Of a DNA stretch of 64,000 bases, positions 774 to 41,896 are shown piece after piece (positions within the stretch are counted from its first letter, which is position 1; every line of letters starts with the position of its first letter). The translations under genes and the position numbers were made by a program. The notes below the pieces were generated by a model. It did not search any database. It was not told the DNA's origin and worked only from the letters and a program-made list of their open reading frames with translations. The stretch is from Paludibacteraceae bacterium (GTDB taxonomy: Bacteria > Bacteroidota > Bacteroidia > Bacteroidales > Paludibacteraceae): NCBI GenBank assembly GCA_024401565.1, contig JAKSKU010000006.1, positions 21,910 to 85,909 of the forward strand, in the 5' to 3' direction.

Positions 774-3260
774 ATGGATTTTGGACATTTTGACGATGCG
801 AACCGTGAGTTCGTCATCACCAATCCCGCAACCCCATTCCCTTGGATCAACTATCTAGGAAATGAGGATTTCTTTGGTTTGATCTCAAACACAGCTGGTG
901 GATATGATTTCTACAAGGACGCTAAGTTCCGTCGTATCACACGTTACCGTTACAACGGTGTTCCTATGGATAACGGTGGTCGTTACTTCTACATCAACGA
1001 CAATGGTACAGTGTGGAACCCAGGTTGGAAGCCTTGCAAGACTCCGCTAGATTCTTACGAGTGCCGCCACGGTATGAACTACACTCGCATCACTGGTTCA
1101 AAGAACGGTATCGAGGCATCAGTTCTTTTCTTCGTTCCATTGAAGACATGGGCTGAGGTTCAGAAAGTGACATTGAAGAACACTACAACTTACACAAAGA
1201 AGATCAAGTTGTTCTCATTCGCTGAGTGGTGTTTGTGGAATGCAGCTACAGATATGGAGAACTTCCAGCGTAACTGGTCTACAGGTGAGGTTGAGATCGA
1301 CGGTAGCGTAATCTACCACAAGACAGAGTATAAGGAGCGTCGTGATCACTATGCATACTACGCAGTAACAAATGCAAAGATCGACGGTTATGATACAGAC
1401 CGTGAGTCGTTCATCGGTCTATACAACGAGTTCGCTGATCCTCAGTGTGTAATGGCAGGCAAGCCAGGTAACTCATTGGCACACGGATGGTCGCCAATCG
1501 CGTCTCACTACATCGAGGTTGAGCTTAAACCAGGTGAGAGCAAGGACTACATCTTCGTTCTTGGTTATGTAGAGAACAAGCAGGAGGAGAAGTTCTCTAA
1601 GGAGGACATCGCACGCAAGAAGAGCGGCGAGTTGATCTCTTCTCAGGATTCAGACGTAACACTAGTAAACAAGAAGAAGGCACAGGAGCTAATCAAGAGA
1701 TTCTCTACAGTTGCTGCTGTTGACGCTGCATTCGCAGAGTTGGCTAACATGTGGGATATCCTTCTTGACAAGTATGTTGTTAAGTCAGAGGATGACAAGC
1801 TTAACCGTATGGTTAACATCTGGAGCCAGTACCAGTGTATGATCACATTCAACTTCTCTCGTTCAGCTTCATTCTTCGAGAGCGGTGTTGGTCGTGGTAT
1901 GGGATTCCGTGACTCTAACCAGGACTTGGTTGGTTTCGTTCACCAGATTCCTTCTCGTGCTCGCGAGCGTATAATTGATATCGCGTCTACTCAGTTCCCT
2001 GACGGAGGTTGCTACCACCAGTACCAGCCACTAACTAAGCATGGTAACAATGACATCGGTGGTGGATTCAACGATGACCCATGCTGGTTGATCTTCGGTA
2101 CTGCTGCATACGTTAAGGAGTCAGGAGACTTCTCTATCCTTAAGGAGCCAGTTCCATTCGATAACAAGCCAGGTACAGAGGTTTCATTGTTCGAGCACTT
2201 GAAGATCTCTTTCAACCATGTTGTTAACAACCTTGGACCTCACATGTTGCCACTTATCGGTCGTGCTGACTGGAACGACTGTTTGAACTTGAACTGCTTC
2301 TCTTGGGATCCAAACGAGTCATTCCAGACTACAGAGAACAACTCAGTAGGTTCAAAGGCAGAGTCTTTGATGATCGCAGGTTTGTTCGTAGTAACTGGTA
2401 AGGACTATGTAGAGCTATGTAAGGAGATCGGTGAGACAGCAGAGGCTGAGCGCGCACAGAAGTGCATCGACTCAATGGTTGAGGCAGTTAAGAAGCACGG
2501 TTGGGACGGCGAGTGGTACCTACGTGCATACGACTTCTACGGAAACAAGATTGGTTCTAACGAGTGTGAGGAAGGTAAGATCTTCATCGAGTCTCAGGGA
2601 TTCTGTACAATGGCAGGTATCGGACTTGAGGAAGGTATGGTTGACAAGGCTATCGACTCATGTAAGAAATATCTTGACTGTGAGCACGGTATGGTACTTA
2701 ACAACCCTGCTTACACAACTTACCACGTTGAGATGGGTGAGATTTCTTCTTATCCTGCAGGTTACAAGGAGAACGCAGGTATCTTCTGTCACAACAACCC
2801 ATGGGTTATCATTGGTGAGACAGTTGCTTCTCGTGGTAACGATGCTTGGGAGTTGTTCCGCAAGATCGCTCCTATGTACTTGAAGGATCAGGCACTTCAC
2901 AAGGTAGAGCCATACGTAAACTGCCAGATGGTTGCAGGTAAGGATGCCGCTAAGCCAGGTGAGGGTAAGAACTCATGGTTGACAGGTACAGCTGCTTGGA
3001 TGTGGTTGACAGTATCTCAGTACTTGCTAGGTATCAAGCCTTCATACAAGGGATTGGAGATCAACCCATGTCTTCCATCAGACATGAAGCCTTACACAGT
3101 TAACCGTAAGTTCCGTGATGCTGACTACATCATTAGAGTAGTTCCTAATGGTGCGCAGAAGGGTGTAAAGAAGGTTACTGTTAACGGTAAGGAAATTGCT
3201 GGTAACATTGTTCCTATGCAGCCTGCTGGATCTAAGACTATTGTTGAGGTAGAGATGTAA
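774..3260 (+). CDS. Cellobiose phosphorylase (GH94)
   Basis: This cytoplasmic enzyme, 828 residues with no signal peptide, cleaves cellobiose with phosphate into glucose 1-phosphate and glucose. The sequence follows bacterial GH94 cellobiose phosphorylases from the first residues ([26 protein letters not shown]) to the end. It includes [18 protein letters not shown], the YHQYQPLTK region and [14 protein letters not shown]. The WND aspartate, about residue 502, is the expected general acid. Codon choice is strongly biased (GGT, CGT, AAC, TTC, AAG), which suggests high expression. A perfect terminator hairpin follows. Downstream are a GH5 glucanase and two sugar symporters, which fits intracellular phosphorolysis of imported cellobiose. 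A cellodextrin phosphorylase is the main alternative, but the near full-length match to the cellobiose enzymes argues against it. Confidence 0.95.
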
Positions 3261-3274
3261 TACATCTTCATAAA

Positions 3275-3306
3275 AATAAGGGGAGTGTTTAAAGACTCCC
3301 CTTATT
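3275..3306 (+). terminator. Intrinsic terminator or attenuator after cellobiose phosphorylase
   Basis: AATAAGGGGAGT and ACTCCCCTTATT form a perfect 12-bp stem with an 8-base loop, followed by a short T-rich run. It lies between the phosphorylase and the GH5 gene and could lower expression of the downstream genes. Confidence 0.8.
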
Positions 3307-3335
3307 CTATTTAGTCATTCATAAAAGGAAGAGAT

Positions 3336-4517
3336 ATGAGAAGACTGATATACATTATAGCGGTAATTGGAGCTGCTTTGATGTCAAGTTGTGGTCAGAA
3401 GACAGATGGAAAAGCATCAGAAGTAGTCGTTGACACTATTCCTCCAGTGCAGAAATATGGTGCATTGCAGGTAAAGGGATTGCAGCTATGTGACAAAGAG
3501 GGTAATCCTGTTCAGTTGGCTGGATTAAGCACTATGGGCTATCAATGGTTTGGCCAGTGCTATACAAAAGAGTCTATCACACAAATGGTGAAAGACTGGC
3601 ATATTAGCATACTTCGTTTGGCGATGTATGTGGAAGAAGGAGGCTATAATTATAAGCCAGAAATCAGAGATGAGATGTGTAATCTTATCGATGTTTGTGA
3701 GGAACTTGGTGTTTATTGTATCATGGACTGGCATATACTTACACCTGGAAATCCTCTAGATCCAAAATATTCGAAAGCAGAGGAATTCTTTAGATATATG
3801 GCGAAACGCAATGCTAACAAGCAGAATGTGTTGTATGAGATCTGTAATGAGCCTAACGGTAATTCGGTGACATGGGATACAATTGCTGTTTATGCCAACA
3901 AAATCATTCCAATCATACACGCGGCTTACGATAGTGTAAACGCACCTCATCCAATTGTTGTTGTCGGCACTCCTCAGTGGTGCCAGTTGGTAGATGCCTG
4001 CATCAAAGATGGCAGATACCAGGGCAACGGAAAGGATTTGGACGCATATTTGCCAGATCGTGACGCACGTTTGAAATATGATAACGTGATGTATTCGTTC
4101 CATTTCTATGCTGCCACTCATAATGAAGGATTTGAGAAAGACGGTAAGCCAAACTACTACGATATGTATTCATACTTGTATGAAGTGCTTGGCCGACTTC
4201 CAGTATTCTGTACAGAGTTCGGTTGTGTAGAGTCTTGGGGTGGTGGAGATGAGGATTTCGACCGCACAGACAGATGGTTGTTGATGCTTTCGGGTAACAA
4301 CGCGGGAAAGCAGAGAGTCAGCTTCTGTAACTGGAGCTTCTGCGACAAGGATGAGACAGCTTCTGTGTTGCGCCCTGGTTCTTGCCAGGCCAAAGACTGG
4401 GATAGCCGTACACCTGCAGGAGAATACTTGAAGAGAGTGTTGAATGTCATCAACTGCGGAGCTCAGGACACAAGTGTCTTGAAGAAGTCGAACATTTATA
4501 TTAAGAGACAAAACTAA
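3336..4517 (+). CDS. GH5 endoglucanase-type lipoprotein
   Basis: A secreted glycoside hydrolase family 5 enzyme of 393 residues. The N-terminus is a lipoprotein signal (MRRLIYIIAVIGAALMSSC), so the mature protein should be lipid-anchored in the envelope. GH5 landmarks are visible: ILRLAMYV, IMDWHIL, the acid/base glutamate in YEICNEPNG (E172) and the nucleophile in FCTEFG (E294), with SFHFYAATH between them. The overall pattern is that of GH5 subfamily 2 cellulases. It would cut cellulose or beta-glucan chains into oligosaccharides for the adjacent symporters and phosphorylase. The start is the ATG preceded by AAAGGAAGAG. Substrate (cellulose versus mixed-linkage glucan) cannot be settled from sequence. 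Confidence 0.92.
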   Translation: MRRLIYIIAVIGAALMSSCGQKTDGKASEVVVDTIPPVQKYGALQVKGLQLCDKEGNPVQLAGLSTMGYQWFGQCYTKESITQMVKDWHISILRLAMYVEEGGYNYKPEIRDEMCNLIDVCEELGVYCIMDWHILTPGNPLDPKYSKAEEFFRYMAKRNANKQNVLYEICNEPNGNSVTWDTIAVYANKIIPIIHAAYDSVNAPHPIVVVGTPQWCQLVDACIKDGRYQGNGKDLDAYLPDRDARLKYDNVMYSFHFYAATHNEGFEKDGKPNYYDMYSYLYEVLGRLPVFCTEFGCVESWGGGDEDFDRTDRWLLMLSGNNAGKQRVSFCNWSFCDKDETASVLRPGSCQAKDWDSRTPAGEYLKRVLNVINCGAQDTSVLKKSNIYIKRQN

Positions 4518-37752: not shown

Positions 37753-39192
37753 TCATTTCATCAAATCTTCAATCGTTACAACTGATTGGAAATTATTTGA
37801 ATACTCATTTTGTCTGAGTCCAAATGTGGTTATAAGCGTTGTGTGGACATTTAGTTTAGGAAATTTCTCCTCAATTTGCTGTGTTCTCCTTCTTAATGTT
37901 TCATCATACGATTTGTCTACCGTGAATTGGTCCTTGTAGAATTTCATCTCGCAGATATTGACCACATTATCAGCTCTCTCTATCACCATATCTATCTGCA
38001 TTCCAGGATTATTTTCTGATGCTGACACTATATATGCCGATTGTTTCGACGATACACTGCCAATCCCCAGTGCTGATTTTATCTGTTTCGCATGATTGAA
38101 ACAGATCTCTTCAAATGCAATCCCTTTCCATGAGTTGTATTCTGGCTTGTTGATTTTATGTGCCCAATAATCTTCATCTTTCCCTTGATATCCTTCCACA
38201 AACGTAATCCAAAACCAACAAAATGGATCGGAAAGTTTGTAGTGAACATTCCTCTCAGAGTATCCAAACGGAACATATTTCTCCACAAAATCACTCGCAA
38301 TCAATGCCTTTAACAAATTGCTTAAATCACCATTGTTGGATATTCCGACTTTCTTAGCAATCTCGTCGCGCATGTATCCATAATGCCTTGTAAATAAGCA
38401 TTTAATGATTTTTTTGCAAACTGTGTCGTTGATGAATAGCGAACCAAAAAGTCTGTCGAACTCATCTGTTAACTTTGGATTTTTGCAAAAAAACAATTTG
38501 TCAATATTTTGTGCTAACGACAGTGAACGATTGAAATAGTTCATATAATACGGAATGCCACCAAGTGTCATATATGCTTGAATGACATCGTAATCTGACA
38601 TTTTTATGGAGTTGGCATTGTAAAACTCCCTGCACTCTCGTAAAGTGAATGGAGAAAGTTTTATTTGGGAAGTCAATCTGTTGTAAAGACCTCCCTTGTT
38701 GTTTATGAGGTTGTCGACAATCCACGACGTTGCAGATCCACACACCACAAACAAAAGATTTCTACGTGATGCTCCCCAACCATTCCAAAATGCTTCCAAA
38801 GCAGTCACAAATCCAGATCGTGCAGTATCCATCCATGGCAATTCATCAATAAAAACTACTTGTCGTGTGCCATTGTCAAGACGGTCAAGCAATTGCTCAA
38901 GCATGAAAAATGCCTCAAGCCAATTTTTAGGACATGATTGTCCCTCAAGCCCATACCGTATCAACGAATAATAGAAATTCTGTAGTTGATCCTTGGTCTT
39001 ATTAGACTTGCTTTTTTCAATTGGCGACAGTCCTGTGTGCGAGAAAGTCATGACGTCTCTAAAGACCTCCTTAACCAAGAATGTCTTTCCAACTCGTCTT
39101 CTCCCATAGACAGCTACAAACTCAGATTGCTTGCTGTTGTATAGTTTTTTTAGTTCTTCTATTTCCTGTTTTCTTCCAACTATCTCGCACAT
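37753..39192 (-). CDS. Archaeal-type AAA ATPase with C-terminal DUF234 nuclease-like domain
   Basis: A 479-residue ATPase of the Pfam ATPase_2/DUF234 type. The N-terminus reads VGRKQEIEELKKLY, the P-loop is GRRRVGKT (residues 30-37), and Walker B is VVFIDELPWMD. The C-terminal region has a PD-(D/E)XK-like signature with D401 (MQIDMVIE), E415 and K417 (CEMKF). The start is MCEIVGRKQE at 39192; the longer reading adds 12 residues of poor character. The gene is bounded on both sides by the same palindromic repeats in direct orientation. The family has no established function. Confidence 0.9.
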   Translation of the reverse strand: MCEIVGRKQEIEELKKLYNSKQSEFVAVYGRRRVGKTFLVKEVFRDVMTFSHTGLSPIEKSKSNKTKDQLQNFYYSLIRYGLEGQSCPKNWLEAFFMLEQLLDRLDNGTRQVVFIDELPWMDTARSGFVTALEAFWNGWGASRRNLLFVVCGSATSWIVDNLINNKGGLYNRLTSQIKLSPFTLRECREFYNANSIKMSDYDVIQAYMTLGGIPYYMNYFNRSLSLAQNIDKLFFCKNPKLTDEFDRLFGSLFINDTVCKKIIKCLFTRHYGYMRDEIAKKVGISNNGDLSNLLKALIASDFVEKYVPFGYSERNVHYKLSDPFCWFWITFVEGYQGKDEDYWAHKINKPEYNSWKGIAFEEICFNHAKQIKSALGIGSVSSKQSAYIVSASENNPGMQIDMVIERADNVVNICEMKFYKDQFTVDKSYDETLRRRTQQIEEKFPKLNVHTTLITTFGLRQNEYSNNFQSVVTIEDLMK

Positions 39193-39241
39193 AAGCAGTT
39201 CTATAAAAATCGTTATGCAAATATGCACATTTTTTTGTTAT

Positions 39242-39460: not shown

Positions 39461-40060
39461 ATGATTTGGGATTTGCTTTCACCGTTATACGACTTATTTG
39501 AAACTGCCTACAATGGCAAGTGTTTCAAGGGTATTGCAGAAGAGATTAAGAATCACGTGGATAAGGACGACGTTGTGCTTGAATGTGCCTGTGGCACTGG
39601 CCTGCTGACTCTGCCTATGGCTCAGAAGTGTAAGGAACTTATCGCTACTGACTATTCCGACGGTATGCTAAAGCAGACTCAGAAGAAGATTGGCGGATAT
39701 TCCAATACGAAGATTCAAAAGGCAAGTATTCTGGATATTCCTTTTGAGGATAACCGTTTCGACGTTGTGGTTGCTGCCAATGTGATCCATCTACTTGACG
39801 ATCCTGGTAAGGCTCTTGCGGAGATGAAAAGGGTGTGTAAACCTGGTGGTAAACTTATCATCCCTACTTACGTAAATAAGGAGAGCAAGAATTCGATGGT
39901 GGCAGCCAAACTGCTTTCTATGCTTGGTGTGGACTTCAAACGCCAATTCAGTTTGGATTCATACAAGGAGTTTTTCGCTAATCATAATGTTGAGGTGAAG
40001 GAGTATCACGTCGTGGAGGGAAGAATGCCGTGTGCGTTTGCGATAATAGTAGCCCCCTAA
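39461..40060 (+). CDS. SAM-dependent methyltransferase (class I, UbiE/type 11-like)
   Basis: A 199-residue class I methyltransferase. Motif I is VVLECACGTGLLTLP, followed by the acidic end of strand 2 (LIATDYSDGML), the strand-4 segment RFDVVVAANVIHLLDD and the post-motif MKRVCKPGGKLIIPTYV. The substrate is unknown; a small molecule or quinone-like acceptor is usual for this group. The last codons (GTA GCC CCC TAA) lie in the GC-rich repeat at 40050, so the C-terminus has probably been replaced by the repeat. Confidence 0.88.
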   Translation: MIWDLLSPLYDLFETAYNGKCFKGIAEEIKNHVDKDDVVLECACGTGLLTLPMAQKCKELIATDYSDGMLKQTQKKIGGYSNTKIQKASILDIPFEDNRFDVVVAANVIHLLDDPGKALAEMKRVCKPGGKLIIPTYVNKESKNSMVAAKLLSMLGVDFKRQFSLDSYKEFFANHNVEVKEYHVVEGRMPCAFAIIVAP

Positions 40061-40103
40061 AGGGGGAACTGCAGCCCCCTAACCCCCTGAAGGGGGAATT
40101 TGT
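40050..40103. repeat. GC-rich inverted repeat, left end of the DUF559 cassette
   Basis: Two units: AGCCCCCTAAAGGGGGAACT, then AGCCCCCTAACCCCCTGAAG continuing GGGGAATTTGTA. Each contains a CCCCCTnAAGGGGG hairpin. The same unit occurs in inverted orientation at 40557-40630. Confidence 0.95.
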
Positions 40104-40129
40104 ACTATGCTATTATTTTGTTAAATTTG
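40099..40129 (+). promoter_or_regulatory. Promoter of the DUF559 gene, -33 box inside the repeat end
   Basis: TTTG (40099-40102), 19 bases, then TAAATTTG (40122-40129): both boxes are exact. The TTTG is part of the inner terminus of the GC-rich repeat. The ATG is four bases after the -7 box, so the mRNA is expected to be leaderless. Confidence 0.7.
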
Positions 40130-40133
40130 CAAT

Positions 40134-40499
40134 ATGAATAGTGCAGATCCAGCTTATTACGAAGAATTAAAATTACGTGCAAAACACAATCGCAATAATC
40201 CGACAGAAGCAGAATCCTATTTATGGGAAATGCTTCGTGGCAAAAAAATGGAAGGTTATAAATTCCGTCGTCAACACATTATAGGTAAATACATCGCAGA
40301 TTTCATTTGTTTAAGCAATTCGTTAATTATTGAAGTCGATGGTGGTTATCATGACACCCAAGAACAACAACATGATGATGCTGTTCGTACTGCGTTTCTT
40401 GAAGAACAAGGGTATAAAGTCATAAGATTCAAGAATGAGGAAATTATTGCAAACACCGACGTCGTACTCAAAGAGATAAAAGCAAATCTACTCAAATAA
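40134..40499 (+). CDS. DUF559 endonuclease-like protein (VSR fold)
   Basis: A 121-residue protein of the DUF559 family, related to very-short-patch-repair endonucleases and the PD-(D/E)XK fold. Landmarks are NNPTEAESYLWEMLRG, the GYKFRRQHIIGKYIADFIC strand with D56, LIIEVDGGYH (E67, D69, H73) and YKVIRFKNEEI. All expected acidic residues are present, so it should be catalytically competent. No experimental role is known to me for the stand-alone family. It lies alone between inverted GC-rich repeats, with a promoter that starts in the left repeat. Confidence 0.92.
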   Translation: MNSADPAYYEELKLRAKHNRNNPTEAESYLWEMLRGKKMEGYKFRRQHIIGKYIADFICLSNSLIIEVDGGYHDTQEQQHDDAVRTAFLEEQGYKVIRFKNEEIIANTDVVLKEIKANLLK

Positions 40500-40505
40500 T
40501 TTTTC

Positions 40506-40513
40506 TATTTTTG
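40506..40513 (+). promoter_or_regulatory. -7 box of the antiporter gene
   Basis: TATTTTTG, an exact TAnnTTTG match, begins seven bases after the DUF559 stop and lies 27 bases before the antiporter ATG. Confidence 0.5.
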
Positions 40514-40540
40514 TATAGAAATTCAATTATCTAATACAAA

Positions 40541-41896
40541 ATGGAAGATCCAACAAATAATTATAGTTCACAAACTCCCCCTTCAGGGGGCCGGGGGGCT
40601 ACAACTCCCCCTTCAGGGGGCCGGGGGGCTGCTTCAGGGGCTTTGTCTCTCTCCCCACTTCTTTTATTCTTTATATGTTACGTCGGAGGCAGTATCGCTC
40701 TTGGCGACTTCTACGCTATTCCGATTATAGTGGCTTTCGTGGTGACGAGCCTTTATGCGTTGTTGGTCTTCCGCAACGACACTTTCAATAATCGTGTGAT
40801 GGCTTTCGCACGTGGTGCCGGAAACGAAAACATCATGTATATGGTGTTGATCTTCATTTTGGCTGGTGGTTTTGCCTCACTCGCTAAAAGTATCGGAGCT
40901 ATCGACGCCACTGTCAACCTATGCCTTTATGCGTTGCCGACGTCGCTCCTCCTTCCTGGATTATTTCTTGCCACATGCTTGGTGTCGATGAGTATCGGCA
41001 CTTCTGTAGGATCTATTGCCGCATTGGTGCCATTGGCTGCTGGACTTGCCGACCAGACTGGCAATAGTGTGGCTCTCTACACTGCCTGCATCGTGGGTGG
41101 TGCTTTCTTCGGCGATAATCTTTCTTTCATCAGCGACACTACCATCGTTGCCACTCGTACACAGGGAATCGCCATGCACGAGAAATTCAAAGCGAATATC
41201 AAGATTGCCCTTCCTGCCGCACTCGTTTCGATGATAATCTACGTGGTGATGGGATTCGGTTCGGAGGCAAGCCACACGGTTCAATCCCCTGATTTCTTAC
41301 GCGTGCTTCCTTATTTGGTGGTGTTGGTTTTGGCTGTTTGTGGTATCAACGTCATCATTGTGCTTGCAATCGGTATCGCTCTATGCACGCTTCTTGCAAT
41401 GTGTCTTGACGGTACTGCTTTCACCTCCATTATGCAGTCTGTCGACGGGGGAGTGAAAGGCATGAGTGAACTTATCATCGTCACGTTGCTTGCCGGAGGA
41501 CTGATGGAGTTGATTAGAATAAATGGTGGTATCGACGTGGTGATGGATGCCATCAAACGAAGTGTTAAGAAACGTCGTGGGGCAGAGTTGAGCATCGGTG
41601 CACTTGTAATGGCTGCTGACTTCTGTACTGCCAACAACACTATCGCCATCTTAACAGTAAGCTCACTTGCTAAGGAGATTTCCGAACGATTCAATATCCC
41701 GCCTCGACGTGTGGCAAGTCTGCTCGACACGTGGAGCTGCATCGCACAGTCGATTATTCCGTATGGAGCCCAACTTCTAATCGCGTCGGGACTTGCCCAT
41801 ATTGCGCCCACTGAGATTATCAGCCATCTCGTCTACCCATATATATTGGCCGTGATCACATTTGGGGTAAGTGTTATAGGAAAAAACCGTGCATAG
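40541..41896 (+). CDS. NhaC-family Na+/H+ antiporter with repeat-encoded N-terminus
   Basis: A 451-residue inner-membrane sodium/proton antiporter of the NhaC family with about 11-12 hydrophobic segments. Family landmarks are SMSIGTSVGSIAALVPLA, ACIVGGAFFGDNLSFISDT and AADFCTANNTIAIL. Residues 12-20 and 22-30 both read TPPSGGRGA, the translation of two GC-rich repeat units; a third partial unit follows. The membrane domain only begins at about residue 36. The repeat is in frame and appears tolerated as a cytoplasmic tail. No alternative start downstream of the repeat is evident, so the native start was probably lost or replaced. Confidence 0.9.
   Translation: MEDPTNNYSSQTPPSGGRGATTPPSGGRGAASGALSLSPLLLFFICYVGGSIALGDFYAIPIIVAFVVTSLYALLVFRNDTFNNRVMAFARGAGNENIMYMVLIFILAGGFASLAKSIGAIDATVNLCLYALPTSLLLPGLFLATCLVSMSIGTSVGSIAALVPLAAGLADQTGNSVALYTACIVGGAFFGDNLSFISDTTIVATRTQGIAMHEKFKANIKIALPAALVSMIIYVVMGFGSEASHTVQSPDFLRVLPYLVVLVLAVCGINVIIVLAIGIALCTLLAMCLDGTAFTSIMQSVDGGVKGMSELIIVTLLAGGLMELIRINGGIDVVMDAIKRSVKKRRGAELSIGALVMAADFCTANNTIAILTVSSLAKEISERFNIPPRRVASLLDTWSCIAQSIIPYGAQLLIASGLAHIAPTEIISHLVYPYILAVITFGVSVIGKNRA
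40557..40635. repeat. GC-rich inverted repeat, right end of the DUF559 cassette, inside the antiporter gene
   Basis: Two almost identical 30-bp units, each CTCCCCCTTCAGGGGG then CCGGGGGGCT, plus a partial third unit (CTTCAGGGG). In reverse complement they match the left copies at 40050-40103. Confidence 0.95.

Follow-up and report, generated by a model that had tools for sequence, protein, structure and literature searches.

The 64,000-nt stretch of contig JAKSKU010000006.1 from a Paludibacteraceae bacterium that was analyzed here (the window, at its full length) contains a gene for a 121-aa DUF559 (PF04480) nuclease of the Vsr/EDxHD-type restriction fold, which lies at 40134–40499 on the plus strand and is enclosed by GC-rich palindromes in inverted orientation. 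The locus is best explained, with a probability of roughly 0.7, as a stand-alone member of a group of selfish mobile cassettes that occur across Bacteroidota, in which a DUF559 nuclease gene stands between inverted palindromic ends. These ends have a common structure that reads, from the outside inward, as a C-run, a second C-run, a short loop, and a G-run. The unit is bounded by the repeats, its nuclease is apparently intact, it is found in many unrelated genes, and derivatives without DUF559 exist (inverted doublets, solitary repeats, and half-repeat scars), some of them at host sites of full cassettes. The original prediction for this DNA, a mobile repeat–DUF559–repeat unit with a Vsr-like nuclease and a logic like that of repetitive extragenic palindromes (REPs) and their associated transposases (RAYTs), is supported, its movement by inference; a larger fact, which lay beyond it, is that the cassette is inserted in frame in housekeeping genes.

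Terminal Repeats of the Cassette

In the window, two GC-rich palindromes 30 nt apart stand on each side of the nuclease gene, and the left pair is inverted relative to the right pair. The outer left repeat (40050–40068, plus strand) has the core CCCCCTAAAGGGGG at 40053–40066, and the inner left repeat AGCCCCCTAACCCCCTGAAGGGGGAATTTGT (40073–40103, plus strand) includes a palindrome at 40083–40096. Both right repeats, the inner at 40573–40600 and the outer at 40603–40632, lie on the minus strand as the inverse of the left form; each holds a copy of AACTCCCCCTTCAGGGGGCCGGGGGGCT (at 40603–40630 in the outer one), which is approximately the reverse complement of the left form. The arms 40071–40100 and 40603–40632 are 87% complementary, and a longer pair of 88-nt arms flanking the DUF559 gene is 72% complementary. 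Direct reading of the sequence and the complementarity of the arms thus confirm a DUF559 gene between inverted GC-rich repeats, as had been proposed, but the number of repeats had been given as one per side and is two. The pattern CCCCYKRARGGGG (at most one mismatch) has 12 matches in the window, every one within the four repeat copies, against an expectation of 0.16; as many were reached in 0 of 100 shuffles, and chance fails to account for this clustering. Throughout the host genome (2.18 Mb, 78% complete), CCCCCTGAAGGGGG (at most one mismatch) has nine copies, four of them at the DUF559 locus, which is the single DUF559 gene detected in that assembly.

Three sets of loci were compared: a family set (200 genomes of the host family, Paludibacteraceae, with 132 DUF559 domains; 100 regions hand-picked nearly in score order to about 92 bits, skipping a few listed matches of similar score, plus automatic loci), a named set (the best 80 of 577 loci), and a phylum survey set (the best 29 loci). 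Eight of the 241 domains are the same element in two collections and were counted once, which gives 233 distinct domains; 238 of the 241, duplicates included, were used in the analyses of nearest neighbors, host identity, residues, promoters, and repeat similarity. The analysis of flanks left out 14 of the 132 family domains, which had no full 250-nt flanks or contained N, and five of the 109 further domains. At a local score of at least 28 between the two 250-nt flanks, judged against displaced control windows, inverted repeats are present at 97 of 118 family domains (35 of 2459 controls), 58 of 77 named loci (21 of 2135 controls), and 16 of 27 survey loci (0 of 111 controls), an enrichment that bears out the idea that the repeats cluster beside DUF559 genes. 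All 38 stand-alone genes of the named set exceed this threshold, as do 20 of its 39 in-frame insertions. The median length of repeats scoring at least 32 is 34 nt; 122 of 149 show the C-run–loop–G-run hairpin.

The more alike two nucleases are, the more alike are their repeats (Mantel rho 0.41; 0 of 300 permutations), and the two diverge together within single genomes as well (40 elements from 11 genomes; 1 of 5000 permutations). Joint movement and evolution of cassette and nuclease would lead to this, but so would the descent of entire cassettes from common ancestors, with no need for the nuclease to recognize the repeats. Copies in different genes, whose flanks are unrelated, align up to the outer ends of their repeats and no farther in PurL and SpoIID, in MetH and a TPR protein, and in two DNA methylases. 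Genome G049 has two 96%-identical copies on two contigs, at two places in IleRS (the second assigned through its similarity to locus L191), which align to the outer ends of the repeats; in a sixth pair, at two IleRS sites, the alignment covers the domain only. Among 28 cross-gene pairs, which are not independent, 18 have alignments that stop no more than 12 nt from the outer end of either repeat, and none extends more than 8 nt past them; in such related copies, the terminal inverted repeats delimit the shared unit.

The IleRS loop HYPFE...PADFISEG could be read in 24 of 30 uninterrupted genes fetched, a sample biased against inserts because the best-scoring loci were taken. One of these loops holds a solitary repeat (L177), three hold half-repeat remnants (L165, L178, and L180), and none was recognized in the remaining 20; elsewhere, the same loop is filled by full cassettes. 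In the single-contig genome G031, IleRS carries DUF559-less inverted repeat pairs at two sites, in frame. Empty sites had been anticipated for a mobile unit, and the IleRS site is indeed found empty, scarred, or filled in different species, but no such counterpart was found for the window locus.

In-Frame Insertion in Host Proteins

DUF559 was detected in 92 of the 200 family genomes, with many of the matches inside long open frames, and in 222 of 392 Bacteroidota genomes in the phylum survey. When at least 120 aa of host protein before the domain and at least 60 aa after it are required, 113 of the 233 distinct domains of the pooled sets lie in frame within larger proteins, a fraction that is not a phylum-wide rate because all three sets favor strong matches. 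The hosts include IleRS (22), LeuRS (19), MetH (18), PurL (9), ValRS (7), UvrA (5), RecG (5), SpoIID (3), DegT (3), and HsdR (3), plus others, and PrmC was also seen. The insertions fall in 26 host clusters, which is an upper figure, several single members being alike (type ISP or other DNA methylases, DegT). Pfam scans of 25 cluster representatives (L094 was left out) confirmed hosts that include MazG, UvrC, Lhr, methylmalonyl-CoA mutase, and GH31. In all 77 distinct in-frame cases above the repeat threshold, both repeats lie within the host open frame, and the linkers of the host protein are translated palindromes, for example PPKSPLGD...KSPKGDLGG or LSPNPSPEERGT...PLSSGEGAGGEV. Such proline/glycine-rich peptides could serve as tolerable linkers, so that insertions in loops of essential proteins would survive and would be hard to lose cleanly. 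In genomes G083, G058, and G077, the only IleRS among the matches listed bears the insert.

Two further features of the hosts were noticed. DUF559 precedes guanylate kinase in two Prevotellaceae fusions (L226 and L243, the latter from Hoylesella timonensis), and one work cited in PMC3733652 names, in its title, the guanylate kinase of Rickettsia as the host of a repeat insertion. Proteins of restriction-modification type receive a noticeable share of the DUF559 insertions (L119, L282, L128, L287, L096, L283, and L298; type ISP, Eco57I-like, HsdR, and N6/N4 methylases).

The long open frames might be thought artefacts of assembly or annotation, or the insert might be removed from the RNA or the protein. 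Many of the loci come from metagenome assemblies, the repeats seem to break contigs (as in the IleRS copies of G049), an open frame was itself the selection criterion for in-frame cases, and the IleRS gene of G057 contains a longer insert with stop codons. Against this stand fusions of the same kinds in isolate genomes (RecG in Flavobacterium difficile and Aequorivita todarodis, IleRS in Marinilabilia salmonicolor, and Lhr in Mucilaginibacter sp. OK268) and in the single-contig G031 (L104, L134), as well as the recurrence of open-frame homologous fusions at the same site in many species, and we regard artefact or removal as very improbable. No intron or intein was evident, although no dedicated search for either was run, and Pfam scans of 27 host proteins (E ≤ 0.001) list no intein family. 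The fused proteins are apparently unspliced, and they are presumably made and functional. In G057 (L189, contig 23, about 2700–4250), IleRS has DUF559 at the first site, and the longer insert at the second site includes an open reading frame of the RhuM family (PF13310); with its stop codons, this insert implies that the IleRS gene is in two pieces or misassembled.

The DUF559 Nuclease

The DUF559 protein of the window matches PF04480 at 131 bits (curated cut-off, 20.6) over residues 12–119. The DUF559 fold matches that of the homing endonuclease I-Bth0305I and of Vsr, and I-Bth0305I is the closest solved and characterized fold after the DUF559 structure 3hrl. Residues E27, D56, E67, D69, and H73 are invariant among 80 sequences, and D56, E67, and H73 are found in 238 of 238; by analogy, residues of this type are probably catalytic. 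A real nuclease is made plausible by the DUF559 protein VsrA of Caulobacter, to which the SOS response of cells without the methyltransferase ScmA is reportedly due (PMC12907096). A role in defence was considered and rejected, since PADLOC gave weak matches only: the best covered 51 residues of DpdF (1.2e-5), and others were to HEase (8e-4) and mREase_II (1.1e-3).

The DUF559 domains are under purifying selection, and they persist for long at their sites; both would also suit a useful accessory domain, gained by its hosts for repair, editing, or defence and not selfish, and several hosts do act in DNA repair or restriction (UvrA, UvrC, RecG, HsdR, type ISP). An accessory domain nevertheless seems unlikely to us, given that the hosts are unrelated and without a common function, that the domain is patchily distributed, that terminal repeats bound the unit from gene to gene, and that empty and scarred sites exist.

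For 75 of 105 labelled domains, the closest DUF559 occupies the same host site in another genome (5.3 with shuffled labels). Identity between DUF559 domains at one site exceeds that between their hosts by more than 5 points in one of 189 LeuRS pairs, in none of 66 MetH pairs, and in none at six other sites; the 21 MetH exceptions of a first comparison all pair two different MetH sites. The domains are thus closest at the same site and yet less alike than their hosts, which gives no sign that they were recently transferred horizontally, and most copies appear to be old. These figures do not support horizontal homing from species to species at a given site. The cassette could still be a classical homing gene, whose DUF559 enzyme cuts an allele that is insert-free or holds a solitary repeat and is then copied in by double-strand-break repair instead of by a REPIN-like copying of the repeat unit; the EDxHD fold of I-Bth0305I, insertion in conserved genes, site-specific lineages, and the solitary repeat in the IleRS of L177 would all suit it. 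It is doubtful, however, since same-site DUF559 domains of different species are, one LeuRS pair apart, no more similar than their hosts, since 121 aa are too few for the extra DNA-binding modules that PMC3943268 describes in phage homing enzymes, and since homing leaves the widespread doublets unexplained.

Derivatives and Ownership of the Repeats

Of the 200 family genomes, 77 contain the palindrome CCCCCTNAAGGGGG without mismatch, and none contains its reversed control. DUF559-less inverted doublets in the orientation of the cassette number 567 in 48 of the 200 genomes, and those in the opposite order number 54 in 10; near-identical 57-nt doublets stand at several places in G040 and in G097. 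Doublets in the opposite order (e.g., L372–L387) have outer stems of the form GGGGCRG...CYGCCCC and are arranged in rows in some genomes (G041, G175), and possibly represent another, larger type of hairpin built on the same palindrome. As had been expected of the repeat and the gene, they co-occur: 57 genomes have both, 35 DUF559 only, 20 the repeat only, and 88 neither (odds ratio 7.2; within-genus permutation p 0.002), and their counts are correlated (Spearman 0.58).

A Y1 (RAYT/IS200-type) transposase encoded elsewhere in the genome could be what moves the palindromes, which would then be ordinary REPs next to which DUF559 genes merely happen to lie. Y1_Tnp genes are present in 116 of the 200 family genomes, and 31 of 48 Y1 loci (L388–L435) have inverted flanking repeats of their own, which are unlike those of DUF559. 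A single seed protein served to find the Y1 genes, which were then picked by hand from the listed matches, mostly in genomes with the repeat; one further locus was left out because it had no flank. Even so, CCCCTNAAGGGG stands on both sides of 0 of the 48 Y1 genes and of 31 of 122 family DUF559 genes, and on either side of 1 of 48 and 40 of 122, respectively. With CCCCTNAAGGGG flanking DUF559 rather than Y1 genes, ownership of the repeats by a RAYT was not supported; the divergence of repeat and nuclease together within genomes also speaks against it, and we consider a Y1 transposase an improbable owner.

The Window Locus

Nine genomes of the genus, the window's own included, were compared. 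Eight have DUF559, one gene each, and seven of these eight, again with the window's own, have it at the window site, each flank bearing one or two palindromes; in G005, the gene (L017) is at another place, likewise between palindromes, and in G006, neither a DUF559 nor an NhaC match was found. The NhaC gene of G005 is interrupted by a contig end. Because seven of the nine genomes share the site and no empty site was found, the window copy looks old and inherited in place. Seven antiporter loci read in other genera have different neighbors, and no repeat-coded extension was seen there.

Both neighboring genes reach into the repeats, as the positions of the open reading frames confirm. The left neighbor, a gene for an S-adenosylmethionine-dependent methyltransferase (39461–40060, plus strand), has its 3′ end within the cassette and takes its stop codon from the outer left repeat. 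The right neighbor (40541–41896, plus strand), a gene of the Na+/H+ antiporter family (NhaC-like), includes the right repeats, which encode an N-terminal extension and translate as TPPSGGRGA residues at about residues 11–30. Farther upstream, on the strand opposite to the methyltransferase gene, a gene of the ATPase_2 family (PF01637) lies at 37753–39228.

The proposal that the inner end of the left repeat supplies a promoter held for the window copy but not as a general rule. TTTG (40099–40102) is the inner end of the left repeat and is followed by 19 nt, by TAAATTTG (40122–40129), and by the ATG at 40134; this TTTG-N19-TAAATTTG match (40099–40129, plus strand) has the Bacteroidota-type promoter form. 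Outside clear in-frame insertions, a full −33/−7 pair within 260 nt upstream was found for 2 of 120 domains, so the promoter belongs to the window copy rather than to the cassette, and a repeat-borne promoter was rejected as a general feature. TATTTTTG, at 40506–40513, lies just past the DUF559 stop codon and 27 nt before the antiporter ATG and matches the Bacteroidota −7 form TAnnTTTG; from this position, the cassette may carry a promoter of the antiporter gene.

Interpretation

In the mechanism that we propose for the selfish cassette, the nuclease would recognize the repeats of its own cassette, whether double-stranded, extruded as a cruciform, or folded into a single-strand hairpin, and would nick or cut there, and the break or the released strand would allow the cassette and the doublets to be copied elsewhere through recombination or replication. 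Once inserted, the cassette would for the most part be passed on together with its site; it would sometimes be lost and would rarely jump, while the doublets would multiply.

Several results weigh against this interpretation. Cleavage and movement by the cassette were inferred and neither was observed, and no target-site duplication was evident by eye at 10 IleRS junctions, which were read without a strict pre-insertion allele. In the named set, 19 of 39 in-frame insertions fall below the inverted-repeat threshold, and of the 105 domains in the named and survey sets, only 7 are flanked by exact CCCCTNAAGGGG; outside the family, therefore, the repeats have other sequences. Ten of the 28 cross-gene alignments fail to reach the outer end of one or both repeats, and the 18 good pairs come from three gene combinations (16 are PurL/SpoIID) and so stand for about three transfers. 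The repeat is present without a DUF559 match in 20 of the 200 family genomes and the reverse holds in 35, DUF559 domains cluster by host site, conservation at a given site is lower for the nuclease than for its host, and no empty allele of the window site was found among the nine genus genomes. A structure model of a RecG–DUF559 fusion was too poor to be used (mean predicted local distance difference test score 44.7).

The odds seem to us about even that the cassettes form a new class of hairpin-ended, one-gene mobile elements, driven by a homing-type Vsr/EDxHD nuclease that recognizes its own palindromes, and that these elements spread REPIN-like doublets and remain in frame and unspliced in aminoacyl-tRNA synthetases, PurL, MetH, UvrA, RecG, and other housekeeping proteins across Bacteroidota. 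If so, many Bacteroidota proteins annotated as ordinary enzymes would contain a foreign nuclease domain and repeat-coded linkers, and they would constitute a natural experiment on the tolerance of essential proteins for large in-frame inserts. The cassette would also be a candidate for what spreads the GC-rich palindromes of Bacteroidota, and it would mean that palindromic repeats of bacteria can be kept and copied by way of an enzyme with a restriction fold instead of an HUH one; its small nuclease, linked to palindromes, might serve as a DNA tool.

Comparison with Known Systems

No report of such DUF559 cassettes was found in the open-access literature searched. The cassette would work like the REPIN/RAYT system or like a homing gene. 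In the REPIN/RAYT system, palindromes are likewise paired with a dedicated enzyme gene and inverted doublets without the gene multiply. RAYT genes are described as mostly inherited vertically while REPINs multiply (PMC8049555), and vertical cassettes with numerous doublets follow that pattern. The cassette differs in its enzyme, a nuclease of the Vsr/PD-(D/E)XK fold instead of a Y1 HUH transposase, in its repeats, in its in-frame position within genes, and in having up to several enzyme copies per genome. I-Bth0305I shares the EDxHD fold with DUF559, and homing genes too reside in conserved genes according to PMC3943268, but the DUF559 domain stands alone, is bounded by terminal palindromes, and belongs to an insert that appears to stay in the protein. 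VsrA of Caulobacter belongs to the same Vsr-like domain family and is hypothesized to be an enzyme of mismatch-repair type; the available portion of its description mentions neither repeats nor mobility (PMC12907096). The palindromic elements of Rickettsia resemble the cassette in that palindromes lie in frame within unrelated proteins, including metabolic ones; as presented in the sections at hand of PMC10969869 and PMC3733652, however, they are about 150 bp long and encode a conserved peptide, and no nuclease gene is mentioned.

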